From a virus, in IMG/VR virus record IMGVR_UViG_3300045020_000095, positions 1 through 43,574 of that record: a stretch of DNA of 43,574 bases. One strand, 5' to 3'. Of the stretch, positions 1 through 43,574 are shown piece after piece (position 1 is the stretch's first letter; every line of letters begins with the position of its first letter). The notes under the pieces are model-generated. The model did not search any database. It had not been told where the DNA came from and saw only the letters and a program-made list of their open reading frames with translations. The position numbers and the translations under genes were made by a program.

Positions 1-475
1 GGACCTCCGCGGGGCGAACCTCAGCGTGGCGAACCTCAGCGTGGCGAACCTCCGCGAGGCGAACCTCGGCGGGGCGAACCTCCGCGAGGCGAACCTCAGC
101 GAGGCGAACCTCCGCGTGGCGGACCTCCAGCCTATCCGGGATGATTTCTGGGCAGTCCTCGCATCATCTCCGAGAGAAATAGTAGGTTTGCGCGCCGCGC
201 TCATTGAAGGACGCGTGGAAGGATCACAGTACCAAGGGGAGTGCGCCTGCCTCGTGGGAACGATAGCCAATGTTCGCGGCTGTGAGTATACGGAACTCGG
301 TGTACTTGCCCCGATGAGCGTCAGGCCAGCGGAGATATTTTTCCTTGGTATTTCGAAAGGCGACACGCCGGAAACGAATCAATTCTCCGCGCTGGCAGTG
401 GAATGGATCGACGATTTCGTTTCGCGGATGCGCGAGGCGTTTAGTGTTCCTGATGATAAAGCCGCTGGCAATTGA
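1..475 (+). CDS. Pentapeptide-repeat protein, 3' part (joins 43193-43574 on the circle)
   Basis: This is the carboxy-terminal part of a gene that begins at 43193 and runs through the contig end; the frame is kept across the join, giving about 242 aa. Codons here start at position 2. It opens with pentapeptide repeats of the A(N/D)Lxx type, encoded by 15-bp units, which in this family fold into a right-handed quadrilateral beta-helix. After residue L of 'VADL' comes a non-repeat domain with '[12 protein letters not shown]', 'RPAEIFF' and 'GDTPETN', a tail I recall from other phage pentapeptide proteins. Function is unknown; some pentapeptide proteins mimic DNA, but nothing here shows that. The stop overlaps the start of a methyltransferase relic at 453. 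Confidence 0.9.
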
Positions 476-589: not shown

Positions 590-1488
590 GACGCGGGAGG
601 CTTTCCGAACAGCGCGAGCAGCGTGTTTACTCCGTCGAGGCACGCCGTGAGCCGCGCATCCTGTGCAGTTGTCAGCCCACCGCTGCTGGCGGGAGGAGCT
701 GCCGTCACTTGGAATAGCGCGAAGCCACCGCCCAGGCCAGCCGATTGAATCGCCCACCCGGAGGGGATCGTCTGCTGCATCGGAATGGGACCCGCGGCGT
801 TCCCGGCGGGGTAGGACAGCACGGTCCCAGGAGTGAGCTCCCACGGCGGAGTTCCGGTGGTGACCGAGAGGTTGAACGAACCCGGCGCTCCGATGCCATT
901 GCTGTTCATCTGCTGAACGGCCTCGCCAACATTGATCCCGCCAGGCGCGCCAGGCCACGGCAGCACGTAGACGTTGCGAGTCTCGCCGTTGAGTACGACG
1001 GTTTGACTGTCAATCAACGTCACGGGCGAAGCGATCGCCGCGGCGATAACGGAAGCGGAGAGGCCGAGCAGTCCGCCGATGAGCTGCACCTGTGCGGGCG
1101 TTGAGAGCAACTGGGGTTGAAGCGGGATGGTTTGGAAGCCGCCGCCGACCAACTGCGCCGGAGTCGGCGGGATCGTGTACGGCTCATACATGAGTTGGCC
1201 AAGCGGTCCAGGAACATTCAGCGAAGCCGCTTGTGCGGCGGTCAGTGTGAAAGTGGCCCACTGTCCGGTCACGGTCGAGTACGCGCCATAGGTGAACACT
1301 TGGGAGGGATTGCCGGCGGCGACGGCGGCGACCGCAGCAGGATCGACCCAGAGCTTCGAAGGCTGAGTTGTGTCGTATGGCGTCCAGAGGACGAATGGCG
1401 CGTTTGGCGGAAACAGATCCAGCGCGGAAAGCGGATAGACGGCGGCAAGCGGAGGCGGAGGCGGGAAGACCATAGAGGCTGTGCTCAT
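586..1488 (-). CDS. Hypothetical protein, probably virion-associated, Pro/Ala/Gly-rich
   Basis: About 300 aa from the ATG at 1488 (another ATG at 1497 is possible; the open frame runs further but would overlap the opposing gene at 1512). The amino end is 'MSTASMVFPPPPPLAAVYPL'. The rest is rich in Ala, Gly, Pro and Thr with short predicted beta stretches, e.g. 'VVLNGETRNVYVLPWPGAPGG' read in two pieces, and no catalytic motif. The composition resembles phage tail or decoration proteins, but I recognise no family. A -10-like TATCAT lies seven nucleotides before the ATG and there is no Shine-Dalgarno sequence. It is divergent from the 1512 gene and converges with the methyltransferase relic; the two TAG stops overlap in a CTAG. 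Confidence 0.75.
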   Translation of the reverse strand: MSTASMVFPPPPPLAAVYPLSALDLFPPNAPFVLWTPYDTTQPSKLWVDPAAVAAVAAGNPSQVFTYGAYSTVTGQWATFTLTAAQAASLNVPGPLGQLMYEPYTIPPTPAQLVGGGFQTIPLQPQLLSTPAQVQLIGGLLGLSASVIAAAIASPVTLIDSQTVVLNGETRNVYVLPWPGAPGGINVGEAVQQMNSNGIGAPGSFNLSVTTGTPPWELTPGTVLSYPAGNAAGPIPMQQTIPSGWAIQSAGLGGGFALFQVTAAPPASSGGLTTAQDARLTACLDGVNTLLALFGKPPAS

Positions 1489-1495
1489 GGGCGTC

Positions 1496-1505
1496 ATGAT
1501 ACCAT
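1496..1505. promoter_or_regulatory. Overlapping divergent -10 elements
   Basis: On the plus strand TACCAT at 1500-1505 lies six nucleotides before the ATG at 1512. On the minus strand TATCAT at 1501-1496 lies seven nucleotides before the ATG at 1488. Neither gene has a Shine-Dalgarno sequence. I see no good -35 for either, so the call rests on the spacing rule shared with other genes in this genome. Confidence 0.45.
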
Positions 1506-1511
1506 GTCCAC

Positions 1512-1850
1512 ATGGCCAACGCCTTCGTAGCGGAGATCGTGAACATCGGAAAGCACATCGTTTCCGGTATCGAGAAGGCCGCGCCGCTGGTTGAGAAGAT
1601 TCTGACCTCGAAACCAATCGCCGCAATCCCGATATACGGGCCTATTCTCTCGGAGCTTGGCACTGTCTTCAGTAATATCGAGGCAGCCAAGACGGAGCCG
1701 CTCACATCCTCCGAAGTCGAGGCGATTGTCACAGCCACAGTGACAGCCCTTCAAATCAAGGCTGCCGCGAGTGCTGCGGCGACACATGACCCAGCGGCCT
1801 TTACCTCAACCGTGACCGCAGTCACTTCCCCCATAACAGGAGCCCAATGA
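1512..1850 (+). CDS. Hypothetical protein, helical, in a small lysis-or-surface operon
   Basis: A 112-aa protein starting MANAFVAEIVNIGKHIVSGI. It is predicted mostly helical, with an amphipathic amino half and an Ala/Thr-rich carboxy half; there is no clear signal peptide or long membrane span, although 'PIAAIPIYGPIL' is hydrophobic. The family is unknown to me. The start has no Shine-Dalgarno sequence but has TACCAT six nucleotides upstream. It is translationally coupled to the next gene through an ATGA overlap at 1847-1850, with AGGAG just before the overlap. The partner is a lipoprotein, so the pair could act at the envelope, for example in lysis or superinfection control; this is a guess. 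Confidence 0.75.
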   Translation: MANAFVAEIVNIGKHIVSGIEKAAPLVEKILTSKPIAAIPIYGPILSELGTVFSNIEAAKTEPLTSSEVEAIVTATVTALQIKAAASAAATHDPAAFTSTVTAVTSPITGAQ

Positions 1851-2449: not shown

Positions 2450-3514
2450 ATGAAACTCTTCACGATTATAATTCCCCTGCTCCCAGCGCTGGCTGCCGCG
2501 CAGGGCTTGCAGTTCTATCCGCTCGCCCCGTGCAGGATCGTGGACACGCGCGGCGCTGGAGGCGGTTTCGTGGGCGCAAGCCCATTTTCCGGGCCCTCCA
2601 TCGCTGCCGCGGCCACGGTCTCTTTTCCCTTCCAGTCGGCCACTCAGGCCACGACGACGGCACCGACGCCATGCGGGCAGCTTCCTGCGACTGCGGTCGC
2701 GTACTCCCTTAACCTCACTGTCGTTCCTGCCGGAGAGGCAGACTACATCACCATATGGCCCATGGGCGCCCCACAGCCGACGACAGCGCTGCTGGATGAC
2801 GTTCCGGGGGCGCTTGTATCCAACGCCGCGATCGTGGGCGCCGGGACGGGCGGAATCTCCGTTTTCAACAGCGGGCCATCAGGCGCCGACATCGTCATCG
2901 ACTTGAACGGCTATTACGCGGCCGCGCCGGTCGCTCCGTGGGGAGCATTCGTTCTGCCGAATGGCCCTCCGGGTTCATGGTCTCCGCCGCCAGGAGTGCC
3001 GCCGTCACAGGTGATTGGATGCCTGCCTTACAGCCCAGGCAATCCGATGGTGTACGCCACGCCCGGCCAATTTTATTACGAACCCGGATTGCAGACACCG
3101 GTTCAGACGGTGTCCGGCTCACCGTTCACATTCACCTACGCCGTTCTGGCGACAGACACGCCCCTGACCATCGCGGCGGGGCTTGCGGCCCTGGTAACAG
3201 GGAACGCTGCGCTACTCGCTGCTGGAGTGACGGTCAGCCTTGACGGAATGGGCGATTTTACCTTGACGGTACCCGCCGCACTCGGGGTCTTTGGCCTCAA
3301 CTCGAATGCCGACAATTCATCGCACAACCCCTCCGAGGGGATCGCAGTGCTTCCCGGCGACGAAGTGGCGATCAGTGGCGTCGCCACCGCAGGCGACACG
3401 GTCTCGCTCTACCTTAGCTTTTCCTCGGTCACCACGGCGCCGGATGAGCTGTGGGTGTGCATGATCGGGAAGTCGCAAACTGGCGAATGGGTTCCGGTGG
3501 TCACCGCGCCCTAG
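2450..3514 (+). CDS. Secreted protein with an Acidobacteria-type beta module
   Basis: From ATG 2450 the protein has 354 aa (a TTG at 2444 would add two). Residues 1-19 form a signal peptide (MKLFTIIIPLLPALAAAQG). Residues about 20-155 carry the pattern 'FYPLAPCRIVDTR', 'AVAYSLNLTVVPAG', 'YITIWPMG', 'VSNAAIV' and 'DIVIDLNGYY', a module I know from secreted proteins of Acidobacteriota and related soil bacteria. The remaining 200 residues are Gly/Ala/Thr-rich, probably beta-structured. No catalytic motif is visible. A phage gene with this module was probably taken from its host. There is no good Shine-Dalgarno sequence, and a terminator hairpin abuts the start, so regulation is unclear. It could alter the host surface or be a virion-linked adhesin. 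Confidence 0.8.
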   Translation: MKLFTIIIPLLPALAAAQGLQFYPLAPCRIVDTRGAGGGFVGASPFSGPSIAAAATVSFPFQSATQATTTAPTPCGQLPATAVAYSLNLTVVPAGEADYITIWPMGAPQPTTALLDDVPGALVSNAAIVGAGTGGISVFNSGPSGADIVIDLNGYYAAAPVAPWGAFVLPNGPPGSWSPPPGVPPSQVIGCLPYSPGNPMVYATPGQFYYEPGLQTPVQTVSGSPFTFTYAVLATDTPLTIAAGLAALVTGNAALLAAGVTVSLDGMGDFTLTVPAALGVFGLNSNADNSSHNPSEGIAVLPGDEVAISGVATAGDTVSLYLSFSSVTTAPDELWVCMIGKSQTGEWVPVVTAP

Positions 3515-3520
3515 CTCGTA

Positions 3521-3556
3521 AGTACTATTGACGCGCCCGAGGGCGCTTGGCAGGAT
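3521..3556 (+). promoter_or_regulatory. Promoter with AGTACTATTGAC element
   Basis: AGTACTATTGAC at 3521-3532 contains a -35-like TTGACG (3528-3533). After 17 bp comes CAGGAT (3551-3556), a weak -10, and six nucleotides later the ATG at 3563. CAGGATGGGG could instead serve as a poor Shine-Dalgarno sequence, so leaderless initiation is less certain here than at 4907. Confidence 0.6.
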
Positions 3557-3562
3557 GGGGTC

Positions 3563-3880
3563 ATGAGTCACACACCAGGACCTTGGGTGCTTGATGGCGA
3601 AACAGTCGGCGAATTGGCTGTCATGTCTTCCGATGGAAAAACGGCCATTTGTATATTTTGCGACCCCGTCGACCTTGGCCCCCCCGAGGTCATCTTTCCT
3701 AATGCCCGCCTGATAGCAGCTGCACCAGAGTTGCTCGAGGCCCTGAAGGTTCTTGACGCGCATCTTGATTTTGCCGTGCCGTTCGAGAATTGTGAATGCA
3801 TCAGTGATGCATCCGGCATCAACGCGGCCATGCTCGCGGCCCGCGCAGCGATAGAGAAAGCCGAAAATGACTCCCTCTGA
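3563..3880 (+). CDS. Conserved small phage protein, HTPGPW/NARLIAAAPELLEAL type
   Basis: A 105-aa protein with the two hallmarks of a very common phage family: 'SHTPGPW' at residues 2-8 and 'NARLIAAAPELLEALK' at about 48-63. The biochemical role of this family is not known to me. The middle has Cys at 'CIFC' and 'CEC', which might bind metal. It is the first gene of a plus-strand operon running 3563-4115 and overlaps the next gene by 14 bp. Expression is likely from the AGTACTATTGAC promoter just upstream. Confidence 0.85.
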   Translation: MSHTPGPWVLDGETVGELAVMSSDGKTAICIFCDPVDLGPPEVIFPNARLIAAAPELLEALKVLDAHLDFAVPFENCECISDASGINAAMLAARAAIEKAENDSL

Positions 3881-4115
3881 AGCTGCTCAGGCGATCATGG
3901 AAAAGAGGGGCTATATCGTGCTCTCCTCACCTATCAAGCATGAAATCCCCTCCACGATACCCGGGGCCAAGGGAGGTATATGTGGTCCGCTCGCCGTGGC
4001 CCTCCGAATCATCAAAGAGACAGACCGGGAGGACGACCTGAAACAGTATCCGATTCTGGGCGTCAAGGCCCCGTCTGTGCGGAGCAGATACTATTATCGA
4101 TGCGTGGCGGAATAA
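3867..4115 (+). CDS. Hypothetical protein
   Basis: An 82-aa protein (MTPSEAAQAIMEKRGYIVLS...). It has a helical amino end and mixed alpha/beta remainder, no signal peptide and no motif that I recognise. It overlaps the preceding gene by 14 bp, which suggests coupled translation, and lies before the small ORF and sigma factor gene. Start choice follows from the overlap; no other start gives a comparable protein. Confidence 0.65.
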   Translation: MTPSEAAQAIMEKRGYIVLSSPIKHEIPSTIPGAKGGICGPLAVALRIIKETDREDDLKQYPILGVKAPSVRSRYYYRCVAE

Positions 4116-4133
4116 ACACGCCGCTGAACGTAG

Positions 4134-4139
4134 TACAAT
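4134..4139 (+). promoter_or_regulatory. -10 element for leaderless mRNA of the sigma operon
   Basis: TACAAT at 4134-4139, within TAGTACAAT, lies six nucleotides before the ATG at 4146, and no Shine-Dalgarno sequence is present. No convincing -35 is seen at 17 bp (AATAAA). The spacing matches the promoter at 4872-4900. Confidence 0.5.
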
Positions 4140-4145
4140 GCCCGC

Positions 4146-4271
4146 ATGAAGCCGCGCCGCCCATCTCTCGCAGGCTGCCCCGCCTGGTGGGTCCGCAAGA
4201 TGGAAGCGCTCAATCACGATCCGCGTATCAACTGGCAGACACCATCCGACGCGAAGCTGCTCAAGCCATGA
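4146..4271 (+). CDS. Small ORF coupled to the sigma factor gene
   Basis: A 41-aa reading frame (MKPRRPSLAGCPAWWVRKME, then ALNHDPRINWQTPSDAKLLKP) whose TGA overlaps the sigma gene start as ATGA at 4268-4271. A TACAAT lies six nucleotides before its ATG. It is basic with two adjacent Trp and no known family. Its coupling suggests a leader or partner peptide for the sigma factor, but it could simply deliver ribosomes to the downstream start. Confidence 0.55.
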   Translation: MKPRRPSLAGCPAWWVRKMEALNHDPRINWQTPSDAKLLKP

Positions 4272-4840
4272 CGCGCGAAGAGACGATCCTCTCACTGGCC
4301 CCCAATGTTAACGCGATCGCCGCCCTCTTCGCCCGAAGGGTGCCGCGCACGGTCCTGGTCGCCGAACTCCGAAGTGTTGCCTGGATCGGAGCTATCCACG
4401 CCGTAGATAGGTATGATTGCAGACGGAAAGTATCTCTTGCCGCCTTCGCGCAGCTTCGCATTCGCGGGGAGATCCTAGATTACCTGCGCCGGCTTGACCA
4501 CCTTACGCGCGGCGAACGCACGAAGCTAAAGAGCGTGGGAGCCGTGCAGCCCGTCGTTGTCTCTCTCGATTCGAAGACTCGCCATGATCAACAGGTGCCG
4601 ACGGCATTCCTTCGCGACCATCGAGCGCAGCGTCAGACCGAGACCGCCGAAGCTAGGATCTTGACAGAAGGTCTCTTCTTGCGCGCAAGCCTTCCAGCGC
4701 GAACAGAAGATGTGATCCGGCGCTTTTACGAGGGCGAGAAACAAGGCGAGACAGCGGCGGTATTGGGCGTTTCGCGAGGCCGCGTGTCTATCATGCGCAA
4801 AAATGGCGAGAAGGCGCTGGCAGCCTGGGCTTTTCAATAG
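4268..4840 (+). CDS. Phage-encoded sigma-70 family RNA polymerase sigma factor
   Basis: A 190-aa protein. Region 2 is seen at about residues 30-80: 'VAWIGAIHAVDRYD' (core-binding helix) and 'VSLAAFAQLRIRGEILDYLR' (the -10 recognition segment, like FliA/SigF 'F..yA..RIRGaiLDyLR'). Region 4 at about 145-180 ('DVIRRFYEGEKQGETAAVLG' then 'VSRGRVSIMRKNGEKAL') is a helix-turn-helix for the -35. No region 1.1 and little of region 3. It would redirect host RNA polymerase, probably to phage promoters. The longer open frame to 3980 has no family match; the ATG at 4268 is favoured by the ATGA overlap. Its stop lies within the target duplication of an IS1595-type element. Confidence 0.85.
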   Translation: MTREETILSLAPNVNAIAALFARRVPRTVLVAELRSVAWIGAIHAVDRYDCRRKVSLAAFAQLRIRGEILDYLRRLDHLTRGERTKLKSVGAVQPVVVSLDSKTRHDQQVPTAFLRDHRAQRQTETAEARILTEGLFLRASLPARTEDVIRRFYEGEKQGETAAVLGVSRGRVSIMRKNGEKALAAWAFQ

Positions 4841-4861
4841 GGAATTATATAGGTGACTACA
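4832..4861 (+). repeat. Target duplication and left terminal inverted repeat
   Basis: Target duplication TTTCAATA at 4832-4839, then the 22-bp left inverted repeat at 4840-4861, starting GGGAATTATATAGG. It matches the right repeat (5945-5966) without mismatch. Confidence 0.95.
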
Positions 4862-4871
4862 CATTTTTCTG

Positions 4872-4900
4872 TTGACACGTTGCGTGTAGTCATGTACTAT
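4872..4900 (+). promoter_or_regulatory. Sigma-70-like promoter driving a leaderless transcript
   Basis: TTGACA (4872-4877), a 17-bp spacer and TACTAT (4895-4900) give a near-consensus promoter. The ATG at 4907 is six nucleotides further, at the expected transcription start, and no Shine-Dalgarno sequence can fit. It lies just inside the left inverted repeat, so the element carries its own promoter. Confidence 0.85.
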
Positions 4901-4906
4901 TAAAGT

Positions 4907-5194
4907 ATGAAGAACACAGACAAATGCAACGAATGTGGCGGCCGGGGGGAGCATAAAGTATGGTGCTCGCTCGACCCAACTCCACAAGGCCCGGTAACTG
5001 TCACGGAGCGAGTGTGGACCGCACTGACAAGCGATGGACGTCGCCTGAAATTCACGGTGGGACCGAAGGCGGATGCTGAATTTGCACTCGCTTACGCGCG
5101 GCGCAACAGCCACAAGCTGCAATTTGAGCAACTCGCATTTTCTACCGAAATCGTGTCGGTCGAAGCTGGCGAAGAAAGCACGAGGGTTGCATAA
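4907..5194 (+). CDS. Cargo gene of the IS1595-type element: small Cys-rich protein
   Basis: A 95-aa protein whose amino end (MKNTDKCNECGGRGEHKVWC) holds CxxCGGxG plus a further Cys, like half of a DnaJ-type zinc motif found in many phage proteins. The remainder is mixed alpha/beta with no family that I recognise. It starts exactly at the predicted transcription start. Its stop is followed directly by the ATG of the next cargo gene. Cargo genes are known in IS1595-family elements; the benefit of this one is unknown. Confidence 0.75.
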   Translation: MKNTDKCNECGGRGEHKVWCSLDPTPQGPVTVTERVWTALTSDGRRLKFTVGPKADAEFALAYARRNSHKLQFEQLAFSTEIVSVEAGEESTRVA

Positions 5195-5389
5195 ATGCAA
5201 GCCGCAATGATCGGAACGGGAAGGGTTAGATGGACGGCCGATACGCAGAGGCATCTGAACCGCGATCCCCGCGTAATCGAGTGGTGGGAAGACGGAGAGG
5301 AACTGGTATTTTCCTACGGTGTGGCTGGCGATCCGACCGGGATATGGAAAGTTACGGCGCGCGATCTTCACATCGACGATTTGAGTTGA
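5195..5389 (+). CDS. Cargo gene of the IS1595-type element: hypothetical protein
   Basis: A 64-aa acidic protein starting MQAAMIGTGRVRWTADTQRH, with several Trp residues ('RVIEWWEDG', 'GIWKVTARDL'), predicted mainly beta. It follows the first cargo gene without a gap (TAA then ATG) and has GAGG nine bases before the start. It precedes the transposase fragment by three bases, so all are likely one transcript. No family recognised. Confidence 0.7.
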   Translation: MQAAMIGTGRVRWTADTQRHLNRDPRVIEWWEDGEELVFSYGVAGDPTGIWKVTARDLHIDDLS

Positions 5390-5392
5390 GAT

Positions 5393-5803
5393 ATGAGCAA
5401 ATCCACAATCAGCACGTTCCAATTGTTCGCCCTGTTCCCTGACGACGAAACCGCTCGTCAGTATCTCGAAAGCCGCCTCTGGCCTAATGGTCCAATCTGC
5501 CCCGACTGCAAGTCTGGAGAGCGCATAAGCACCCTCAGCACGTGTGCCACGCGTAAGGCCGGTTTCTATCGGTGCTTGGCTTGCGCTTTCGATTTCACGA
5601 TTCGAACGAACACCATTTTCGAGCGCTCGAAAGTTCCCCTCCACAAGTGGCTCTACAGCATGTACTTGCTGGTGACCGCGCGGAAGGGCATCTCTTCGCT
5701 TCAACTCGGAAAAGAGATTGGGGTAACCCAGAAAACCGCATGGTTCATCCTCGGACGGCTTCGCGAGGCGTGTGGCGGACCCGATGGACCGCTCACGGCA
5801 TGA
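5393..5803 (+). pseudogene. Truncated IS1595-family (ISXO2-like) transposase, amino half only
   Basis: The 136 aa carry the amino-terminal features of this family: 'FPDDETARQYLESRLWPNG' (residues about 14-32), a zinc ribbon with CPDC and CLAC, and a helix-turn-helix segment 'KGISSLQLGKEIGVTQKTAW'. It stops after 'GPDGPLTA', just where intact relatives continue into 'GxVExDExYxGG', the first acidic residue of the DDE domain. The catalytic domain is thus deleted rather than mutated. The fragment may still bind the element ends and act as a repressor of transposition, as is known for truncated transposases; that is inference. A complete member is about 300 aa. Confidence 0.85.
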
Positions 5804-5937
5804 AGGACGTGCCGGAAGTTCTCGACAAAATGGTTGACGCAGTGCTGGGCTATAAGCCGAAACCGAAGTCGAAAGCAGCGAAGAAACGCCGCCGCAAGGC
5901 TGCGAAGAAGGGAAAGGCGCAAGCCGATGGTTCCTAA
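5800..5937 (+). pseudogene. Probable carboxy tail of the IS1595-family transposase, now a separate 45-aa ORF
   Basis: ATG at 5800 overlaps the TGA of the truncated transposase (ATGA). The product MKDVPEVLDKMVDAVLGYKP is followed by a Lys/Arg-rich tail (KPKSKAAKKRRRKAAKKG). A 'VLxYxPKPKSKAAKKR' ending is what I recall at the end of many ISXO2-like transposases, so this looks like the far side of the deletion that removed the DDE domain. It could also be read as a small basic DNA-binding peptide. Right inverted repeat follows eight bases after its stop. Confidence 0.6.
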
Positions 5938-5944
5938 CGATGAA

Positions 5945-5974
5945 TGTAGTCACCTATATAATTCCCTTTCAATA
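5945..5974 (-). repeat. Right terminal inverted repeat and target duplication
   Basis: The right 22-bp inverted repeat at 5945-5966 ends in CCC and is followed by the second copy of TTTCAATA at 5967-5974. Perfect ends and duplication indicate a fairly recent insertion. Confidence 0.95.
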
Positions 5975-24006: not shown

Positions 24007-24252
24007 GTTGGGCACGTAGGCGTGCACCTGGTTGAGCTGGATCGTGTCAATCCGGTCGTCACTATTCACACGGAAGGTCACCGGAACGCTCTCGGGCAAC
24101 TCCACACCCTGCGCGGCACCGGTGCTTGAGTCTCCGATCCGCGCTGTGCCGCCAATGGCGCACACGGTGAGCTGGCGCGCCTGTTGGGCTCCGGTCGAGA
24201 GTGGGACCGTGGCGCCAGCACCGGCGATGTCTGGGAGCGATGAGAGTTGCAT
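23974..24252 (-). CDS. Small conserved structural-type protein
   Basis: A 92-aa beta-rich protein from ATG 24252 (MQLSSLPDIAGAGATVPLST). 'ARQLTVCAIGGTARIGDSST' and 'NQVHAYVPNSTTLTISYGL' follow a pattern common to small phage proteins next to head genes, which present one Ig-like or beta-sandwich unit. It starts seven bases after the stop of the gp10-like gene. A minor head or decoration protein is likely. Confidence 0.65.
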   Translation of the reverse strand: MQLSSLPDIAGAGATVPLSTGAQQARQLTVCAIGGTARIGDSSTGAAQGVELPESVPVTFRVNSDDRIDTIQLNQVHAYVPNSTTLTISYGL

Positions 24253-24259
24253 GCGGGGA

Positions 24260-24667
24260 TTATAGCGCGCTTCTGATCGCCGTGGCGACGATGTCGAGAT
24301 AGCTCCCAGCCAACTCGTCAAGCGCCGGGCGCATGTACGGCTCCGGCACCATCCCGGGCCAAGACTCCTTGTACGGGCCTGGACCGTGAAGTGGGGATTC
24401 CTGCCCGCGGCGTCCAGTCCCGAACTCGACGTAGAACATGTAGAAAATATCCGGGCCCCACGCTGCCCACGCGCTCGAAGCATCGCTACCGTTCTTGATG
24501 GTGATCGAATCGGCGAGTGCGCCCGTGTCGCGCGGAACGATGGAGGTGGAAATACTGAATCCTGCGTTTGCGGCGTCCATGACGCCCTGCTGAGCACCAG
24601 CAGCGATTTTTGAAAGGAAGCTGCTGGTGTTCGCAAGGTTGAACGTAGCTTTCGCGGTGAGTCCCAC
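24260..24667 (-). CDS. HK97 gp10-like tail completion / neck protein
   Basis: A 135-aa protein. 'SIVPRDTGALADSITIKNGS', 'YMFYVEFGTGRRGQ' and 'PYMRPALDELAGSY' are the hallmarks of the HK97 gp10 family (PRDTGxLxxSI, YxxFxExGT, PFMRPAxd). It takes part in joining tails to heads. Unusually, it is encoded upstream of the protease and capsid genes rather than between adaptor and tail tube genes. GTG start follows the upstream TAA directly. Confidence 0.82.
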   Translation of the reverse strand: MGLTAKATFNLANTSSFLSKIAAGAQQGVMDAANAGFSISTSIVPRDTGALADSITIKNGSDASSAWAAWGPDIFYMFYVEFGTGRRGQESPLHGPGPYKESWPGMVPEPYMRPALDELAGSYLDIVATAIRSAL

Positions 24668-24982: not shown

Positions 24983-25018
24983 AGTACTATTGATCGGTTC
25001 GAAACACAGCCGCACAAT
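24983..25018 (+). promoter_or_regulatory. Promoter with AGTACTATTGAT element, leaderless start
   Basis: AGTACTATTGAT at 24983-24994 includes TTGATC (24990-24995); 17 bp later is CACAAT (25013-25018) and six bases later the ATG at 25025. Just upstream TTCTAGGG occurs twice, 12 bp apart (24959 and 24971), which might be an operator. Confidence 0.65.
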
Positions 25019-25024
25019 CGACTC

Positions 25025-25270
25025 ATGAGCGGGATCAAGCACATCAACGAATACCAACTCCGGAAGGCCCGCGTCATCGTGGCCTTCCTCGTGGGGTGCC
25101 AGCAGAACTCAACGCTGACGCGTCACCAGCTCGCGCAGGTCGTCGCGATCATGGACGCCGAGCAGTGGCAGAAAGTGGCGTTCTCCGCCGGCGTCCCGGT
25201 GGCAGACATCAAGGCGAAGGCGGCTGTACTGGCGCTCTTACGCAACCGCGAGATTCATTGCGTCAGCTAA
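25025..25270 (+). CDS. Small plus-strand protein inside the head block
   Basis: An 81-aa helical protein (MSGIKHINEYQLRKARVIVA, 'LTRHQLAQVVAIMDAEQWQK', 'VPVADIKAKAAVLALLR'). Two or three helices might form a helix-turn-helix, so a regulator is possible but not shown. No Shine-Dalgarno sequence; start defined by the promoter at 24983-25018. Overlaps the 3' end of the opposing phosphatase gene by 33 bp, exactly as the other plus-strand gene at 23689 does. Confidence 0.7.
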   Translation: MSGIKHINEYQLRKARVIVAFLVGCQQNSTLTRHQLAQVVAIMDAEQWQKVAFSAGVPVADIKAKAAVLALLRNREIHCVS

Positions 25271-26034: not shown

Positions 26035-28067
26035 GCCGCCCTCTTGCGTACGGCCTCAACCAGCCGCGCCAGTTTCTGCACGAAGGCGCTTTCCTGCGCC
26101 GGCTGGGCGCCAGGTGCTTCCGGCGTTCCCGGTGGCGCTGGAGCCGCGGTTGTCGCCGGAGCTGGCGACCCACCGGGCAACTGCGGCTGTCCACCCGGAT
26201 TGGGCAGCGCCTTGCCGATGGGTGGCGGAAGATCCGCTTTCGTGCGCGACGGATCGTAGGCCGGCTCGTACCCAGGCGTACCTTTAACCCCAGACGGAGT
26301 TTCCGGGTACATCTTGTCCAGGATCTCCTCAGGATCTTCTACGCCGAGTGTCTCGAACAACAGCCGTACGCCTTCGCGCTCATCGATACCAACGATCTGA
26401 CCGCCCTTGTTCTCGAGCGTCATCGCGGTTGCAATGGCCGCAATGATCGCCGGCATGTCACCTTCACGAATAGCCGGAAAGGTGACGCGCACCTGAATCT
26501 CATTCGCCTTCGGCGGCGCCTTTTCGTCGTAAACTCGAAGCCCATTCGGCAGTGTCTTCCGCGGTGCCTCGGTGATCGAAACAACGTTTCCGGCTCCCAG
26601 AGACTCTCGCAGTTTGCCGCTTGTGGCGCCAGCCGACACGCTCAAAACGAATTTGGAAATGGTCACCAAATCGTCTTCCCATTCCATTTGACGCGCGCGC
26701 ATTCCGAGTTCGGTTGGACGGTCGAGCGTCGTCGCTGTTGAGAGATTCGAGGTCTCCATGTCACCCAACCAGGTCGGTGGAATTCCGAAGACATTCCCGA
26801 TGTACACGTTGTACGTGAGCCCTTCTTTCGGGTCGAGAGACTTGCCCCGCGAGTTCACCATCTCCCACTGCGTACCGGGCCCGTGGGCGAGTTGCGAGGC
26901 TATCACTGGCGTCGGGTTTGTATCCCACAGGGAGTTTCCCGGCGAAGTGTTTACCTGGGTCTGAAGCTGGCGCTTGGTTCCTTCGATCGCGCCTTGACCG
27001 CCCTTGGTTGTGATGTCCCAGGCGATTTGCGCGTGAGATGCCGCGAGCGTTGCACAGCTCTGCATGTAACGTGCGGCGGTCTTCACCCATTCGAGCGCCG
27101 GGTATCCCTCCGGGCATCCGAAATGCCACTTTGCGATGCCCCCAGACTTGCGGTGCAAAATGGGGCTGTCCCAGTACACCGGGTCAACCCCGATAGTCTC
27201 TCCAATTCCAGGCGGCTTAACATAACCGAGCGCCGGGTACCAGGCTATCTGCTGAACGCGTGAAGTTGATCCGGTCGATGGATCGAATTGAGTATTGGTC
27301 CAAATGCGCTTAAACAACTGTTCCTTGTCGCTGTCGTTTGGATCGGTGATGATTTCCTGGATCTCTGTTGCGTCGATGCGGCGCGCGTCCACTTTCCCTG
27401 ATTCCGCTGTGTCGCAAAAGAACACCCAGAAGAGATTTCCGTCCATCGACTTTGCCCGCTGCGTTGCCAGCAAAGCCGTGGGGCCGAACGTATGGCGGTT
27501 GCGCTCAAAGAAATCTTGCAGCACATCGTTTGCGGTGGTGTTGGTGCTCGTAATTTCCACGCCGCGGCCGAACACGTACGCTGCGACAACGTCGATTGCA
27601 CGGCGGAGGAGGGGTTGTTTGACGTAGTACAGCCGCGAAATCAGGATGATCTGCTGAATACCCCATCGTGAGAACTCCAGCCAGCTCAGATTAATCTCAC
27701 GACGCCAGTCAACGTTTTGCAGCGCCAGTTCAATATCGCCAAACGCGCCAATGGCGGAGACTGGAATGGTTTCGCGGAGCCCGCTAAGGGCCGCTTCCTG
27801 AATCCGCAGCATGACGCGGTTGGCTTCCTGGATGAGCGCCGGGCCGGGCATCGCGTACGCTGGCCCACTGCCGCACATCATTCGGGCTTCGACCATCTCC
27901 GAGGCCATCTCGCGGAAGCGATAGAACGACGTCGACTCGTCGGGCGTGAGGCGCGATATCAGCTCGCGGAGAACGCGGTTTTCACCGGCATGGTCGTAGG
28001 GGACCGGAGGCGGAGCGAGTGCCCGCGTCCACCGGAGCAGCAGGGCGCGCAAGAACCGCTTGAACAT
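26031..28067 (-). CDS. Portal protein
   Basis: A 678-aa protein. The central part has portal features: 'WLEFSRWGIQQIILISRLYY' then 'VKQPLLRRAIDVVAAYVFGR' (the family's 'NP..r..v......lvG'), 'GNLFWVFF', 'RIDATEIQEIITDPNDSDK', and 'FGIPPTWLGDMETSNLSTAT'. The carboxy tail is Pro/Ala-rich. It forms the dodecameric DNA gate at one capsid vertex. It starts 16 bases after the stop of a glycosyltransferase-like gene, without Shine-Dalgarno sequence but with TATACT six bases before the ATG. Confidence 0.88.
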   Translation of the reverse strand: MFKRFLRALLLRWTRALAPPPVPYDHAGENRVLRELISRLTPDESTSFYRFREMASEMVEARMMCGSGPAYAMPGPALIQEANRVMLRIQEAALSGLRETIPVSAIGAFGDIELALQNVDWRREINLSWLEFSRWGIQQIILISRLYYVKQPLLRRAIDVVAAYVFGRGVEITSTNTTANDVLQDFFERNRHTFGPTALLATQRAKSMDGNLFWVFFCDTAESGKVDARRIDATEIQEIITDPNDSDKEQLFKRIWTNTQFDPSTGSTSRVQQIAWYPALGYVKPPGIGETIGVDPVYWDSPILHRKSGGIAKWHFGCPEGYPALEWVKTAARYMQSCATLAASHAQIAWDITTKGGQGAIEGTKRQLQTQVNTSPGNSLWDTNPTPVIASQLAHGPGTQWEMVNSRGKSLDPKEGLTYNVYIGNVFGIPPTWLGDMETSNLSTATTLDRPTELGMRARQMEWEDDLVTISKFVLSVSAGATSGKLRESLGAGNVVSITEAPRKTLPNGLRVYDEKAPPKANEIQVRVTFPAIREGDMPAIIAAIATAMTLENKGGQIVGIDEREGVRLLFETLGVEDPEEILDKMYPETPSGVKGTPGYEPAYDPSRTKADLPPPIGKALPNPGGQPQLPGGSPAPATTAAPAPPGTPEAPGAQPAQESAFVQKLARLVEAVRKRAA

Positions 28068-28073
28068 GCGGAT

Positions 28074-28079
28074 AGTATA
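28074..28079 (-). promoter_or_regulatory. -10-like element before portal
   Basis: On the minus strand TATACT (28079-28074) lies six bases before ATG 28067, inside an imperfect palindrome GCGGTATACTATCCGC. No Shine-Dalgarno sequence is present and no clear -35. It could start a leaderless head transcript inside the long operon. Confidence 0.45.
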
Positions 28080-36536: not shown

Positions 36537-36589
36537 CTGCCTATCCTTGGTACTTTCTGCCCCGTGGGGCGCTATTCTCTAACAAGATC

Positions 36590-36625
36590 AGTGTGCGACA
36601 CCGCTCTGTAGGGATCAATAGTACC
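36590..36625 (-). promoter_or_regulatory. Promoter of the virion block
   Basis: On the minus strand GGTACTATTGAT (36625-36614) includes TTGATC (36618-36613); CACACT lies 17 bp further (36595-36590). This would give a leader of about 47 bases, with a GCCCC-AC-GGGGC hairpin and AAGGA, before ATG 36536. Confidence 0.55.
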
Positions 36626-36677: not shown

Positions 36678-36714
36678 AGTACCATAGACGCCCGTACGGA
36701 AGTGGGCGTACTAT
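36678..36714 (+). promoter_or_regulatory. Divergent plus-strand promoter, leaderless start
   Basis: AGTACCATAGAC (36678-36689) includes TAGACG; after 18 bp comes TACTAT (36709-36714) and six bases later ATG 36721. Together with the minus promoter at 36590-36625 it makes a 184-bp divergent control region. Confidence 0.65.
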
Positions 36715-36720
36715 CGACCC

Positions 36721-36906
36721 ATGAAACACTTCCTTGCGTTCCTCATTCCCTCCGACCCCTGGCATCTCGTTCTGATCGCCAGCGCGGTTTTCTTTGTAGT
36801 TCTGTTGAATGTGACCTGGTACTACCGGGACCGTACCGTCATAAACCGTGACGCCGCCTACCGCCGCGTGCGAGACGGTTTTACAACTGAAAGGCGCGGC
36901 TCGTGA
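36721..36906 (+). CDS. Small membrane protein
   Basis: A 61-aa protein. Residues 16-33 ('LVLIASAVFFVVLLNVTW') form one membrane span, followed by a basic, probably cytoplasmic tail ('YYRDRTVINRDAAYRRVRDG'). No Shine-Dalgarno sequence; leaderless start. Coupled by GTGA to the next gene. Could be a small holin-like or exclusion protein. Confidence 0.72.
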   Translation: MKHFLAFLIPSDPWHLVLIASAVFFVVLLNVTWYYRDRTVINRDAAYRRVRDGFTTERRGS

Positions 36907-37955: not shown

Positions 37956-38788
37956 GCACGCCTCCCGTTTATGAGTTTCTCTCGAAATAGTTCTGCGTTG
38001 AACCTGCCGGCCTCCCCGGCCGCGGCGCGCTGGGCGCGTTCAAACTCCACCAGTCTGTCAATCGCCGCAATTCTCTCCGGATCGAGCGGTGGTGGCGATT
38101 CCTGAACCACGCTTGTACGCGTGGGCTCACCCATGATCGCCGCAAGATTCTCTGACGCCCGTAGTTCCCGGAGTCCAGATTTTCGGTCCGGTTTCGGCCG
38201 CGCTTTTTTTTTAAAAGCGCCGTGATCCCCGGTAGAAACTTCATCCGGCTTCGGTCGGTCGGAGAAGACAGGCGGCGGATTTAATAAATCTACTCTCGGA
38301 GAAGGAACTGACGGAGTCTCCGACTGCGAAGCAGGAGGAGTTGGTTGAGGTTGAGGTTGAGGTTGAGGTTGAGCATTTCCAAGCATTGCTTGGCGAATGC
38401 TTGGAGCATTGCTTAGAGCATTGCTTAGAGCATTGCTTAGAGCATTGCTTGGAGCATTCCACCGAGCATTCGCTGCCTTCTTTGCCCTAAGAGTGTTACT
38501 TTGCTCGTATGAGTCAAGTTTTGCAATCACTTCCGAAGCTTTCTTGTTCTCTAAATTACCGTCACGCGTCTCCCTAAAACAGGCCTTTACCTGTGGCCAA
38601 GAACGCTTCCACTCACGATCGGTTACGGAAGCGATTTTTTGCAGAGTTTTGTCTGAGTTTGGTAGAGATCCGGTGTAATATAGGTGGTCGAGCAGCTCCC
38701 GATAGATGCATCTTGCCTCCGCTGAGAGCCGCATTCTTGCCTCAGACAGCCGCCAGTCGGCAACGTACCACGGATAGGAATGTCGCAA
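37952..38788 (-). CDS. DUF1376 (YdaU-like) replication-region protein
   Basis: A 278-aa protein from TTG 38788, with AGGAG five bases upstream. Amino end: 'YPWYVADWRLSEARMRLSAE', 'ARCIYRELLDHLYYTGSLPN', 'VTDREWKRSWPQVKACF', the DUF1376 winged-helix domain (yprYvgDwl.dt..Ls..e.GaY..Ll...Y...gpLp). Then repeats of N-A-L-S and a QP run, and a charged carboxy part. Family members sit where phages keep replication initiators. It is the only replication-like gene here, so host enzymes must do most of the work. Confidence 0.82.
   Translation of the reverse strand: MRHSYPWYVADWRLSEARMRLSAEARCIYRELLDHLYYTGSLPNSDKTLQKIASVTDREWKRSWPQVKACFRETRDGNLENKKASEVIAKLDSYEQSNTLRAKKAANARWNAPSNALSNALSNALSNAPSIRQAMLGNAQPQPQPQPQPTPPASQSETPSVPSPRVDLLNPPPVFSDRPKPDEVSTGDHGAFKKKARPKPDRKSGLRELRASENLAAIMGEPTRTSVVQESPPPLDPERIAAIDRLVEFERAQRAAAGEAGRFNAELFREKLINGRRA
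38343..38462 (-). repeat. 6-bp and 12-bp microsatellites in the DUF1376 gene
   Basis: GGTTGA is repeated about five times at 38343-38372 (Gln-Pro repeats), and a 12-bp unit TTAGAGCATTGC with slight variants is repeated about five times at 38391-38462 (Asn-Ala-Leu/Pro-Ser). Both keep frame, so length changes alter only the linker. Confidence 0.92.
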
Positions 38789-42211: not shown

Positions 42212-42401
42212 GCGTGTACTCCTCCTTGGTGTCGGCAAGCGGAACGGTGGGCGCGGCCAGCTCCGGCTCGCGCATTTCCTCGTTGCTAAGCTTATGTCGC
42301 GGGCATCGCTCACCGCCTGTGCGCCAGAGGCAGCGCGGCACCGGGCAGTAGAGATGCGGATGTTCCCGCTTGTATTCGGCGACCTTAGATGCGGTGTTCA
42401 T
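42204..42401 (-). CDS. Small Cys/His protein
   Basis: A 65-aa protein (MNTASKVAEYKREHPHLYCP). 'CPVPRCLW' and 'CPRH' form a likely zinc knuckle. ATGA overlap with upstream gene; overlaps the next start by eight bases and carries its ribosome site. Function unknown. Confidence 0.68.
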   Translation of the reverse strand: MNTASKVAEYKREHPHLYCPVPRCLWRTGGERCPRHKLSNEEMREPELAAPTVPLADTKEEYTHE

Positions 42402-42673
42402 AGCTTCACCCCGGCGTGGACATCACCGGCGAGGAAGCGGGCCAACGCAATTTCGGCGAGGCCATTGCTGTCGAGCCGTCCTTCGCGAGCAAGGTAATTC
42501 CTCGCTCCTTCGAGAGCGTCGAGGCCGGCGCCGTCCATCTCGTCGGCGTTCTCTTCAATCAGCCGATCAAGGATGTCGCGGGGTGTAATCACTTCGTCGG
42601 ACTCCGGCTCGTCGGGCCCGAAATAATCATCAATGTCGGCGTCGGTGACGCCCGGGGGATAGTTGTTTGCCAT
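42398..42673 (-). CDS. Acidic small protein, first gene of the replication block
   Basis: A 91-aa protein from ATG 42673 (MANNYPPGVTDADIDDYFGP); a TTG at 42688 is in frame but lies inside the promoter. Acidic amino half ('DEPESDEVITPRDILDRLIE') and a helical remainder. Leaderless start predicted: no Shine-Dalgarno sequence and CATCAT five bases upstream. Coupled to next gene by ATGA. No family recognised. Confidence 0.72.
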   Translation of the reverse strand: MANNYPPGVTDADIDDYFGPDEPESDEVITPRDILDRLIEENADEMDGAGLDALEGARNYLAREGRLDSNGLAEIALARFLAGDVHAGVKL

Positions 42674-42678
42674 GACTG

Positions 42679-42714
42679 ATGATGCCAAGCGGATGTGCGC
42701 TTGTAAATGGTACT
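42679..42714 (-). promoter_or_regulatory. Promoter of the replication block, leaderless start
   Basis: On the minus strand AGTACCATTTAC (42714-42703) overlaps TTTACA (42707-42702); after 17 bp comes CATCAT (42684-42679) and five bases later ATG 42673. Upstream, TACCCCAGTAC matches the sequence before the pentapeptide gene. GGTAC-TGGG-GTACC (42709-42722) can form a hairpin. Confidence 0.65.
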
Positions 42715-42726
42715 GGGGTACCTATT

Positions 42727-43134
42727 TTAGGTTCCAAGCTTGCTTTCGAGCGCCGCCGCCTGGGCTTCCGGTAAATGGGCTTCATACCGCAGTTTGTACA
42801 CCCCAGCGCGGTCGAGGTACCAGGCCACGTTGAGATTTACGTTATTTCCAGCCCAGAGCGCAAACCCGGCCTTTGCGTTTGTCAACGGGTCCAGTAAGCC
42901 CTCCTCCGCGCTCCCCAGCAACACCTTCTGTTGGATGAGCTTTTCCACCTCCGCGTTGGCCATATTGATCTGGAGGAGCCCGTATGAGCGGTCACCCGTC
43001 GCGGTGTTTGGATTGAACGCAGCGGGATCACCGGCGCTTTCGCGAAGGGCGATCGCTGTCATGGTTACGGCGACTGTGGGCGGAAAGCCGACGGCACGCA
43101 TCACTTCGAAGATCGCGAGTGGTGTCATGATCAT
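42727..43134 (-). CDS. Lytic transglycosylase / lysozyme-like protein
   Basis: A 135-aa protein from ATG 43134 (MIMTPLAIFEVMRAVGFPPT). 'MTAIALRESAGDPAAFNPNT' has the catalytic Glu of the SLT/goose lysozyme fold (ALxES), and 'GDRSYGLLQINM' is the family's 'sxGLmQin' strand; 'DPLTNAKAGFALWA' follows as expected. It would cleave peptidoglycan, as the endolysin or a tail lysin; no signal peptide seen. The -10-like TATCAT lies six bases before the ATG. Frame to 43293 is not used. Confidence 0.8.
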   Translation of the reverse strand: MIMTPLAIFEVMRAVGFPPTVAVTMTAIALRESAGDPAAFNPNTATGDRSYGLLQINMANAEVEKLIQQKVLLGSAEEGLLDPLTNAKAGFALWAGNNVNLNVAWYLDRAGVYKLRYEAHLPEAQAAALESKLGT

Positions 43135-43140
43135 TCGATA

Positions 43141-43146
43141 ATGATA
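43141..43146 (-). promoter_or_regulatory. -10 element for the lysozyme-like gene
   Basis: TATCAT (minus strand, 43146-43141) lies six bases before ATG 43134, without a Shine-Dalgarno sequence. A -35 is weak (TTGCGC at a 15-bp spacer). Confidence 0.5.
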
Positions 43147-43150
43147 CCCC

Positions 43151-43186
43151 AGTACTATTGCGCGCAACTGAAGCGCGTGGCAACAT
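43151..43186 (+). promoter_or_regulatory. Promoter with AGTACTATTGCG element, leaderless start
   Basis: AGTACTATTGCG (43151-43162) includes TTGCGC (43158-43163); 17 bp later is CAACAT (43181-43186), and six bases later ATG 43193. It is divergent from the lysozyme-like gene. Confidence 0.65.
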
Positions 43187-43192
43187 TCGTGT

Positions 43193-43574
43193 ATGGCTTT
43201 TGAAATCAAAAATCGATTCACCGGCGCCGTGCAGTACCGTTCCAAACTCGCATCTAATGTGCGCGCGGCGATACTGGAAGCGCTTTCAAACATGGCGGAC
43301 CTCCGCGGGGCGAACCTCCGCGGGGCGAGCCTCGGCGAGGCGAACCTCGGCGGGGCGGACCTCAGCGAGGCAGACCTCCGCGGGGCGAACCTCCGCGAGG
43401 CGAACCTCAGCGAGGCGAACCTCCGCGTGGCGAACCTCAGCGGGGCGAACCTCCGCGGGGCGAACCTCAGCGTGGCGAACCTCAGCGTGGCGAACCTCCG
43501 CGAGGCGAACCTCGGCGGGGCGAACCTCCGCGAGGCGAACCTCAGCGAGGCGAACCTCCGCGTGGCGGACCTCC
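43193..43574 (+). CDS. Pentapeptide-repeat protein, 5' part (continues at 1-475)
   Basis: Residues 1-33 ([20 protein letters not shown]...) form the short amino domain I recall from phage pentapeptide proteins (FEIKNRxTGxVQ). From residue 34 the A(N/D)LxxA(N/D)Lxx repeats begin, encoded by 15-bp units. The frame continues through the contig end into position 2 onward. The gene starts the plus-strand side of a divergent region opposite the lysozyme-like gene; start fixed by the promoter spacing. Confidence 0.9.
43294..43574 (+). repeat. 15-bp minisatellite and terminal duplication of the contig
   Basis: Units of the type GCGAACCTCCGCGAG recur without spacers for the entire stretch and on through 1-128. 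Positions 43449-43574 equal 3-128 base for base (126 bp); position 43448 is A where position 2 is G. The overlap marks the circle's closure. Confidence 0.92.

Follow-up and report, generated by a model that had tools for sequence, protein, structure and literature searches.

Predicted leaderless gene starts with a six-base spacing between the -10 hexamer and the start codon in a soil phage and its relatives

Record IMGVR_UViG_3300045020_000095 is a virus contig of 43,574 bases (60% GC), analysed here over its full length (the window). A search for phage DNA near-identical to the window returned none. Its first and last ~128 bases look alike when the sequence is inspected by eye, and this end repeat is near-exact at best, since a script for exact matches reported no end repeat on the contig. 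The contig is probably circular, as judged from the sequence. The host of this soil phage is probably a member of the Acidobacteriota. A short contig of a Bryobacteraceae MAG carries a relative of its terminase (77%), and the host assignment is tentative because a second terminase match (60%) lies in a betaproteobacterial MAG. Short tandem repeats, GCATTGCTTAGA and GAGGTT units, occur in the region of a DUF1376 gene (38350-38460). The features relevant to gene starts are listed in Table 1.

The initial annotation took the ATG at 4907 as its leading example of a leaderless phage start. The sequence is exactly as described there, with TTGACA (4872-4877), a 17-base spacer, TACTAT (4895-4900), the six bases TAAAGT and the ATG; the site was, however, rejected as a phage promoter, lying inside an IS1595-type insertion element that has inserted at the stop codon of a gene for a sigma factor. 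This element encloses both the promoter (4872-4900) and the ORF 4907-5194, encodes a Zn_ribbon_IS1595 transposase and has the terminal inverted repeats and 8-bp target duplication of the IS1595 family. A catalytic DDE domain was looked for in the element and was not found, and therefore this IS copy may be non-autonomous. Related transposase DNA (65-74%) is present in relatives of the Bryobacteraceae MAG. The promoter of the insertion element is itself of the -10, six bases, ATG form, and is uninformative on the phage's own rule because the element carries it.

All ten hexamers listed initially are present at their positions, with a gap of six bases before the ATG at nine starts and of five at 42673 on the minus strand. 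The start at 24252 was absent from that list. No clear -35 element precedes starts of the simple -10 type (1512 and 28067, for example), and the promoter of the portal gene overlaps with the end of the gene before it. The divergent genes starting at 1488 and 1512 have overlapping -10 hexamers on opposite strands, and both the overlap and the spacing are kept in the closest relative, L034; for the minus-strand gene of this pair the codon-based caller chose 1497 as the start instead. Of the ten starts in the initial list, 3563 alone has a Shine-Dalgarno (SD)-like word at SD distance (at 4146, the ORF of which was not called by the gene caller, this was judged by reading the sequence). The promoter at 3563 is ambiguous because its CAGGAT also contains the SD-like AGGA, which is potentially usable as an SD in three -10 hexamers: CAGGAT at 3556, CAGGAT in L046 and AAGGAT in L010.

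Table 1. Coordinates of genes, the insertion element and gene starts in the window
Feature	Position	Strand	Sequence elements	Gene or remark
Pentapeptide-repeat-like gene, repeat-rich	43193-43574 + 1-475	+		appears to span contig ends
Sigma-70-family factor, regions 2 and 4, 190 aa	4268-4840	+		adjoins insertion element
IS1595-type insertion element	4840-5966	+	23-bp inverted ends; 8-bp target duplication TTTCAATA (4832-4839 / 5967-5974)	
Start 3563	3522..3565	+	GTACTA 3522-3527, TTGACG (-35) 3528-3533, 17 b, CAGGAT 3551-3556, six, ATG 3563	gene 3563-3880
Start 25025	24984..25027	+	GTACTA, TTGATC, 17 b, CACAAT 25013-25018, six, ATG 25025	gene 25025-25270
Start 36721	36679..36723	+	GTACCA, TAGACG, 18 b, TACTAT 36709-36714, six, ATG 36721	gene 36721-36906
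Start 43193	43152..43195	+	GTACTA, TTGCGC, 17 b, CAACAT 43181-43186, six, ATG 43193	pentapeptide-repeat-like gene
Start 42673	42671..42713	-	GTACCA, TTTACA, 17 b, CATCAT 42684-42679, five, ATG	gene 42398-42673
Start 43134	43132..43146	-	TATCAT 43146-43141, six, ATG 43134	SLT/lysozyme-like gene; L034 ortholog TATCAT-6-ATG
Start 28067	28065..28079	-	TATACT 28079-28074, six, ATG 28067	portal gene, operon-internal
Start 1512	1500..1514	+	TACCAT 1500-1505, six, ATG 1512	L034 ortholog TACCCT-6-ATG
Start 1488	1486..1501	-	TATCAT 1501-1496, seven, ATG 1488	divergent; -10 overlaps plus-strand -10
Start 4146	4134..4148	+	TACAAT, six, ATG 4146	41-aa ORF overlapping start of sigma-factor gene
Start 24252	24250..24264	-	TATAAT, six, ATG 24252	operon-internal
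Start 36536	36589..36624	-	GTACTA-TTGATC-17-CACACT, leader ~50 bases, SD-like AAGGA, ATG 36536	leadered exception

Gene calling relied solely on codon statistics and was blind to promoters; it gave a set of 20 first genes with ATG starts in the window. YANNMT followed by six bases and the ATG precedes 7 of these 20, against 0.30 expected, and none of 2000 dinucleotide-shuffled versions of these upstream regions reaches 7; TANNNT at gap 6 precedes 4 of 20, against 0.26 in shuffles, and 0/2000 runs reach 4. The gap-6 class of blind first genes is thus far above shuffled sequence. When all ATGs of the window are counted irrespective of genes, TANNNT is found at gap 6 in 12 cases, with a background of about 5 per offset; this is only about a twofold excess, and therefore the evidence rests on the link to gene starts.

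The spacing recurs in the phage family. TANNNT stands at gap 6 before 12 and at gap 7 before 8 of 148 first genes (24 dereplicated loci, 1.2 per offset expected), and before 9 and 2, respectively, of the 25 divergent genes of the same loci; with the window left out, the family loci have it at gap 6-7 in 8 of 18 divergent genes, against 0.51 in shuffles. No gap-6 peak was seen in 19 other viral loci, with 1 and 2 matches at gaps 6 and 7 of their first genes (background 3.7), in 100 kb of E. coli K-12 (0 matches), in Arthrobacter phage TripleJ (0 matches) or in Tunturi_1 and Tunturi_4, two isolated phages of Acidobacteriota; therefore, not all phages of Acidobacteriota behave in this way.

In related phages the six bases persist where the sequence has diverged. 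Six orthologous or equivalent starts of L034 keep exactly six bases, with hexamers (TACCCT, TACGAT, CAAAAT, TATCCT, TATCAT and TAGAAT) and spacers that differ from those of the window; the ortholog of the 36721 promoter retains GTACCATTGATC...TACGAT-6-ATG, and that of the minus-strand 42673 promoter reads GTACTATTTACA...CAAAAT-6-ATG. TANNNT precedes the portal start by 6-9 bases in 11 of the 12 distinct upstream sequences, that of the window included (portal genes with 33-87% identity), with a binomial p of 8e-14 to 2e-16 depending on the background chosen; the exception, L061, carries an SD. For the terminase, a consistent -10 was not found in the relatives, the position of its start being uncertain. 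That distant relatives keep the six-base spacing suggests that the spacing is functional. The roughly twofold excess over all window ATGs would be in keeping with chance, in the form of a degenerate AT-rich hexamer picked by eye before AT-rich starts, but the shuffles, the conservation in relatives and the lack of a peak in unrelated phages leave this explanation hardly any probability. Chance can be regarded as refuted for the class taken together, and single sites may still be due to it. The -10/six-base spacing before gene starts is real and, together with the negative controls and its conservation, argues strongly for predicted leaderless starts.

The proposed rule that first genes are leaderless throughout the phage stood as a strong tendency and not as a law. 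Starts 2450, 36536 (minus), 40136 (minus) and others are without the spacing, and of the first genes, 36536 and 40136 at least have a leader and an SD. Gene 2450-3514 on the plus strand has neither leaderless spacing nor SD and starts directly after a terminator-like hairpin; its ortholog in L034 is located elsewhere, behind a GTACTATTG promoter, and the gene of the window was likely relocated and severed from its promoter. Nor are such starts confined to first genes, as the operon-internal portal start and the one at 24252 carry the -10 and six bases. The expectation that internal genes use an SD or stop-start overlap mostly holds: in the family, SDs precede 49% of internal starts and 28% of first starts, and internal genes have a weak -10 spacing excess.

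A sharper class native to the phage consists of GTACYA abutting a TTGAC-like -35, followed by 17 bases, nAnnAT, six bases and the start codon. Thirteen GTACYAT-type sites were judged to be promoters (in the window, L034, L038, L046 and L010); they were picked by the GTACYAT pattern, so that only the downstream spacing is independent evidence, and the window and L034 are related, which makes the counts not fully independent. A -10-like hexamer is found at +29 in 12 of these sites and at +30 in one, the spacer between -35 and -10 is of the sigma-70 type (17 bases in 12 sites, 18 in one), and a start codon follows 5-7 bases past the hexamer in 11 of 13. The other two sites (36624, minus, and L038:1357) are leadered and have an SD. 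GTACYA usually occurs within the palindrome AGTACY. RGTACY is over-represented between genes (11 of 38 sites fall in 1.6 kb of intergenic DNA; p 3e-7), in part because of the promoters themselves. The window shares promoters of this class with several relatives, and the putative host has hardly any: per 100 kb, GTACYATTG has a frequency of 3.1 in the family and 0.28 in the host MAG (2 matches in 703 kb). A DNA-binding regulator able to read GTACYA was not found by Pfam among the promoter-proximal genes.

The sigma-70-family gene of the window, which has its own -10/six-base start at 4146, and the rarity of the motif in the host MAG might indicate that the sigma factor reading the GTACYA-TTGAC promoters is the phage's own rather than the housekeeping sigma of the host. 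The phage factor has a 41% identical stretch in a Bryobacteraceae MAG, and no relative was found in a protein search of viral contigs. L034, however, has three GTACYA promoters though it lacks the 3563-4840 cassette at the corresponding place, a sigma domain was not found in the records of L034 (which is incomplete and may have a sigma gene elsewhere), L038 and other relatives, and the -35, the -10 and the 17-base spacer resemble those of sigma-70. The phage sigma is thus disfavoured as a necessary reader because relatives keep the motif where the cassette is missing, and we regard this alternative as quite improbable. Reading by the host RNA polymerase with its housekeeping sigma factor is the most likely option.

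In the proposed mechanism, a sigma-70-type promoter would be placed with +1 at the first base (A or G) of the start codon, so that a -10 hexamer, exactly six bases and the ATG would yield a message beginning at the start codon, without a ribosome-binding leader, and host ribosomes would initiate on the 5'-terminal AUG. In the sharpest subclass, GTACYA abutting the -35 TTGAC may be where a regulator of the phage or of the host acts. Six bases is the textbook spacing between -10 and +1. RNA polymerase might instead start at a variable distance, giving messages with leaders of just 1 to 5 nt rather than truly leaderless ones; in the family, gaps 7-11 form a shoulder of the histogram (8, 4, 5, 3 and 4), and portal gaps range from 6 to 9. 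This alternative seems unlikely, given that the mode is exactly six, the textbook distance, and that gap-5 TANNNT was not seen in family first genes. Starts with gaps of 7-9 could have leaders of 1-3 nt. The leaderless reading of these starts is likely, and we assign a probability of about 0.8 to the interpretation that many transcription units of the phage start with leaderless mRNAs through host sigma-70-type transcription, probably regulated through GTACYA.

Leaderless mRNAs of the lambda cI type start at the AUG and are read by the host polymerase and ribosome. The phage described here would be similar in its predicted AUG-first transcripts and in the use of the host polymerase and ribosome, and differs from such single genes, often repressors, in that many genes, including portal, are involved, with conservation across the family. 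Lambda leaderless mRNA is also mentioned in the survey of Zheng et al. 2011 (PMC3160421), in which bacterial TA-led leaderless genes have TANNNT ~12 bp upstream of the start and were found in 3/3 genomes of Acidobacteria, with a mean of 13.3%. The family first genes have a peak for the first T of TANNNT at 12-13 bp, which the controls lack. The phage resembles bacterial TA-led genes (PMC3160421) in the form of the hexamer, its distance, the loose middle positions at high GC and the SDs of operon-distal genes, and differs in being a phage and in the extra conserved GTACYA at the -35. The leaderless transcriptomes of Mycobacterium (PMC3898074, PMC4633059) and Corynebacterium (PMC3890552) are likewise reported to include many leaderless genes with a TANNNT-type -10; those are cellular genomes of another phylum with mapped 5' ends, whereas the phage starts are predicted from sequence.

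The suggestion that the host itself uses leaderless mRNAs is plausible in view of the known leaderless genes of Acidobacteria (PMC3160421); the initial annotation also offered, as a hypothetical alternative, an infection phase in which leaderless mRNAs would be favoured. First genes in 703 kb of the Bryobacteraceae MAG peak at gaps 6 and 7 (15 and 13, against 3.3 per offset) and its internal genes have no such peak, but a second Bryobacteraceae MAG, from the list of relatives, has no clear excess. Divergent genes of the phage family are at gap 6-7 more often than those of the first MAG (11/25, 44%, vs 19/148, 13%; Fisher p 6e-4), and for all first genes together the family has no significant excess over this MAG (p 0.26). 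A more far-reaching reading is that the family expresses most promoters, including those of structural genes, via leaderless mRNAs controlled at a phage-specific GTACYA fused to the -35, and that leaderless translation would be a general strategy of expression during infection, beyond the host average; we put it forward tentatively, as a possibility in both its parts and less probable than the interpretation above.

In the first 150 kb of Tunturi_5 (PP885688; L138, L140 and L141), an isolated 308-kb phage of Acidobacteriota, a repeated promoter-like motif, CATCTTT-N16-TAGGTTGA, has 15 copies by a search for TAGGTTGA plus CATYT. In about half of the copies TAGGTT and ATG are separated by exactly six bases, and TANNNT at gap 6 precedes 9/67 first genes, against 0.5 per offset.

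This type of start is already known in Acidobacteria, and its predicted family-wide use by phages with a -35 element of their own would be new. Most known cases of leaderless translation in phages concern single genes. If the reading is true, a whole phage family of a little-studied phylum would have predictable leaderless starts, as a virus tuned to the translation habits of its host. This would improve the annotation of start sites in soil phages and provide a natural collection of promoters on which leaderless initiation can be tested, and with the isolated phage Tunturi_5 a related test is possible in culture.
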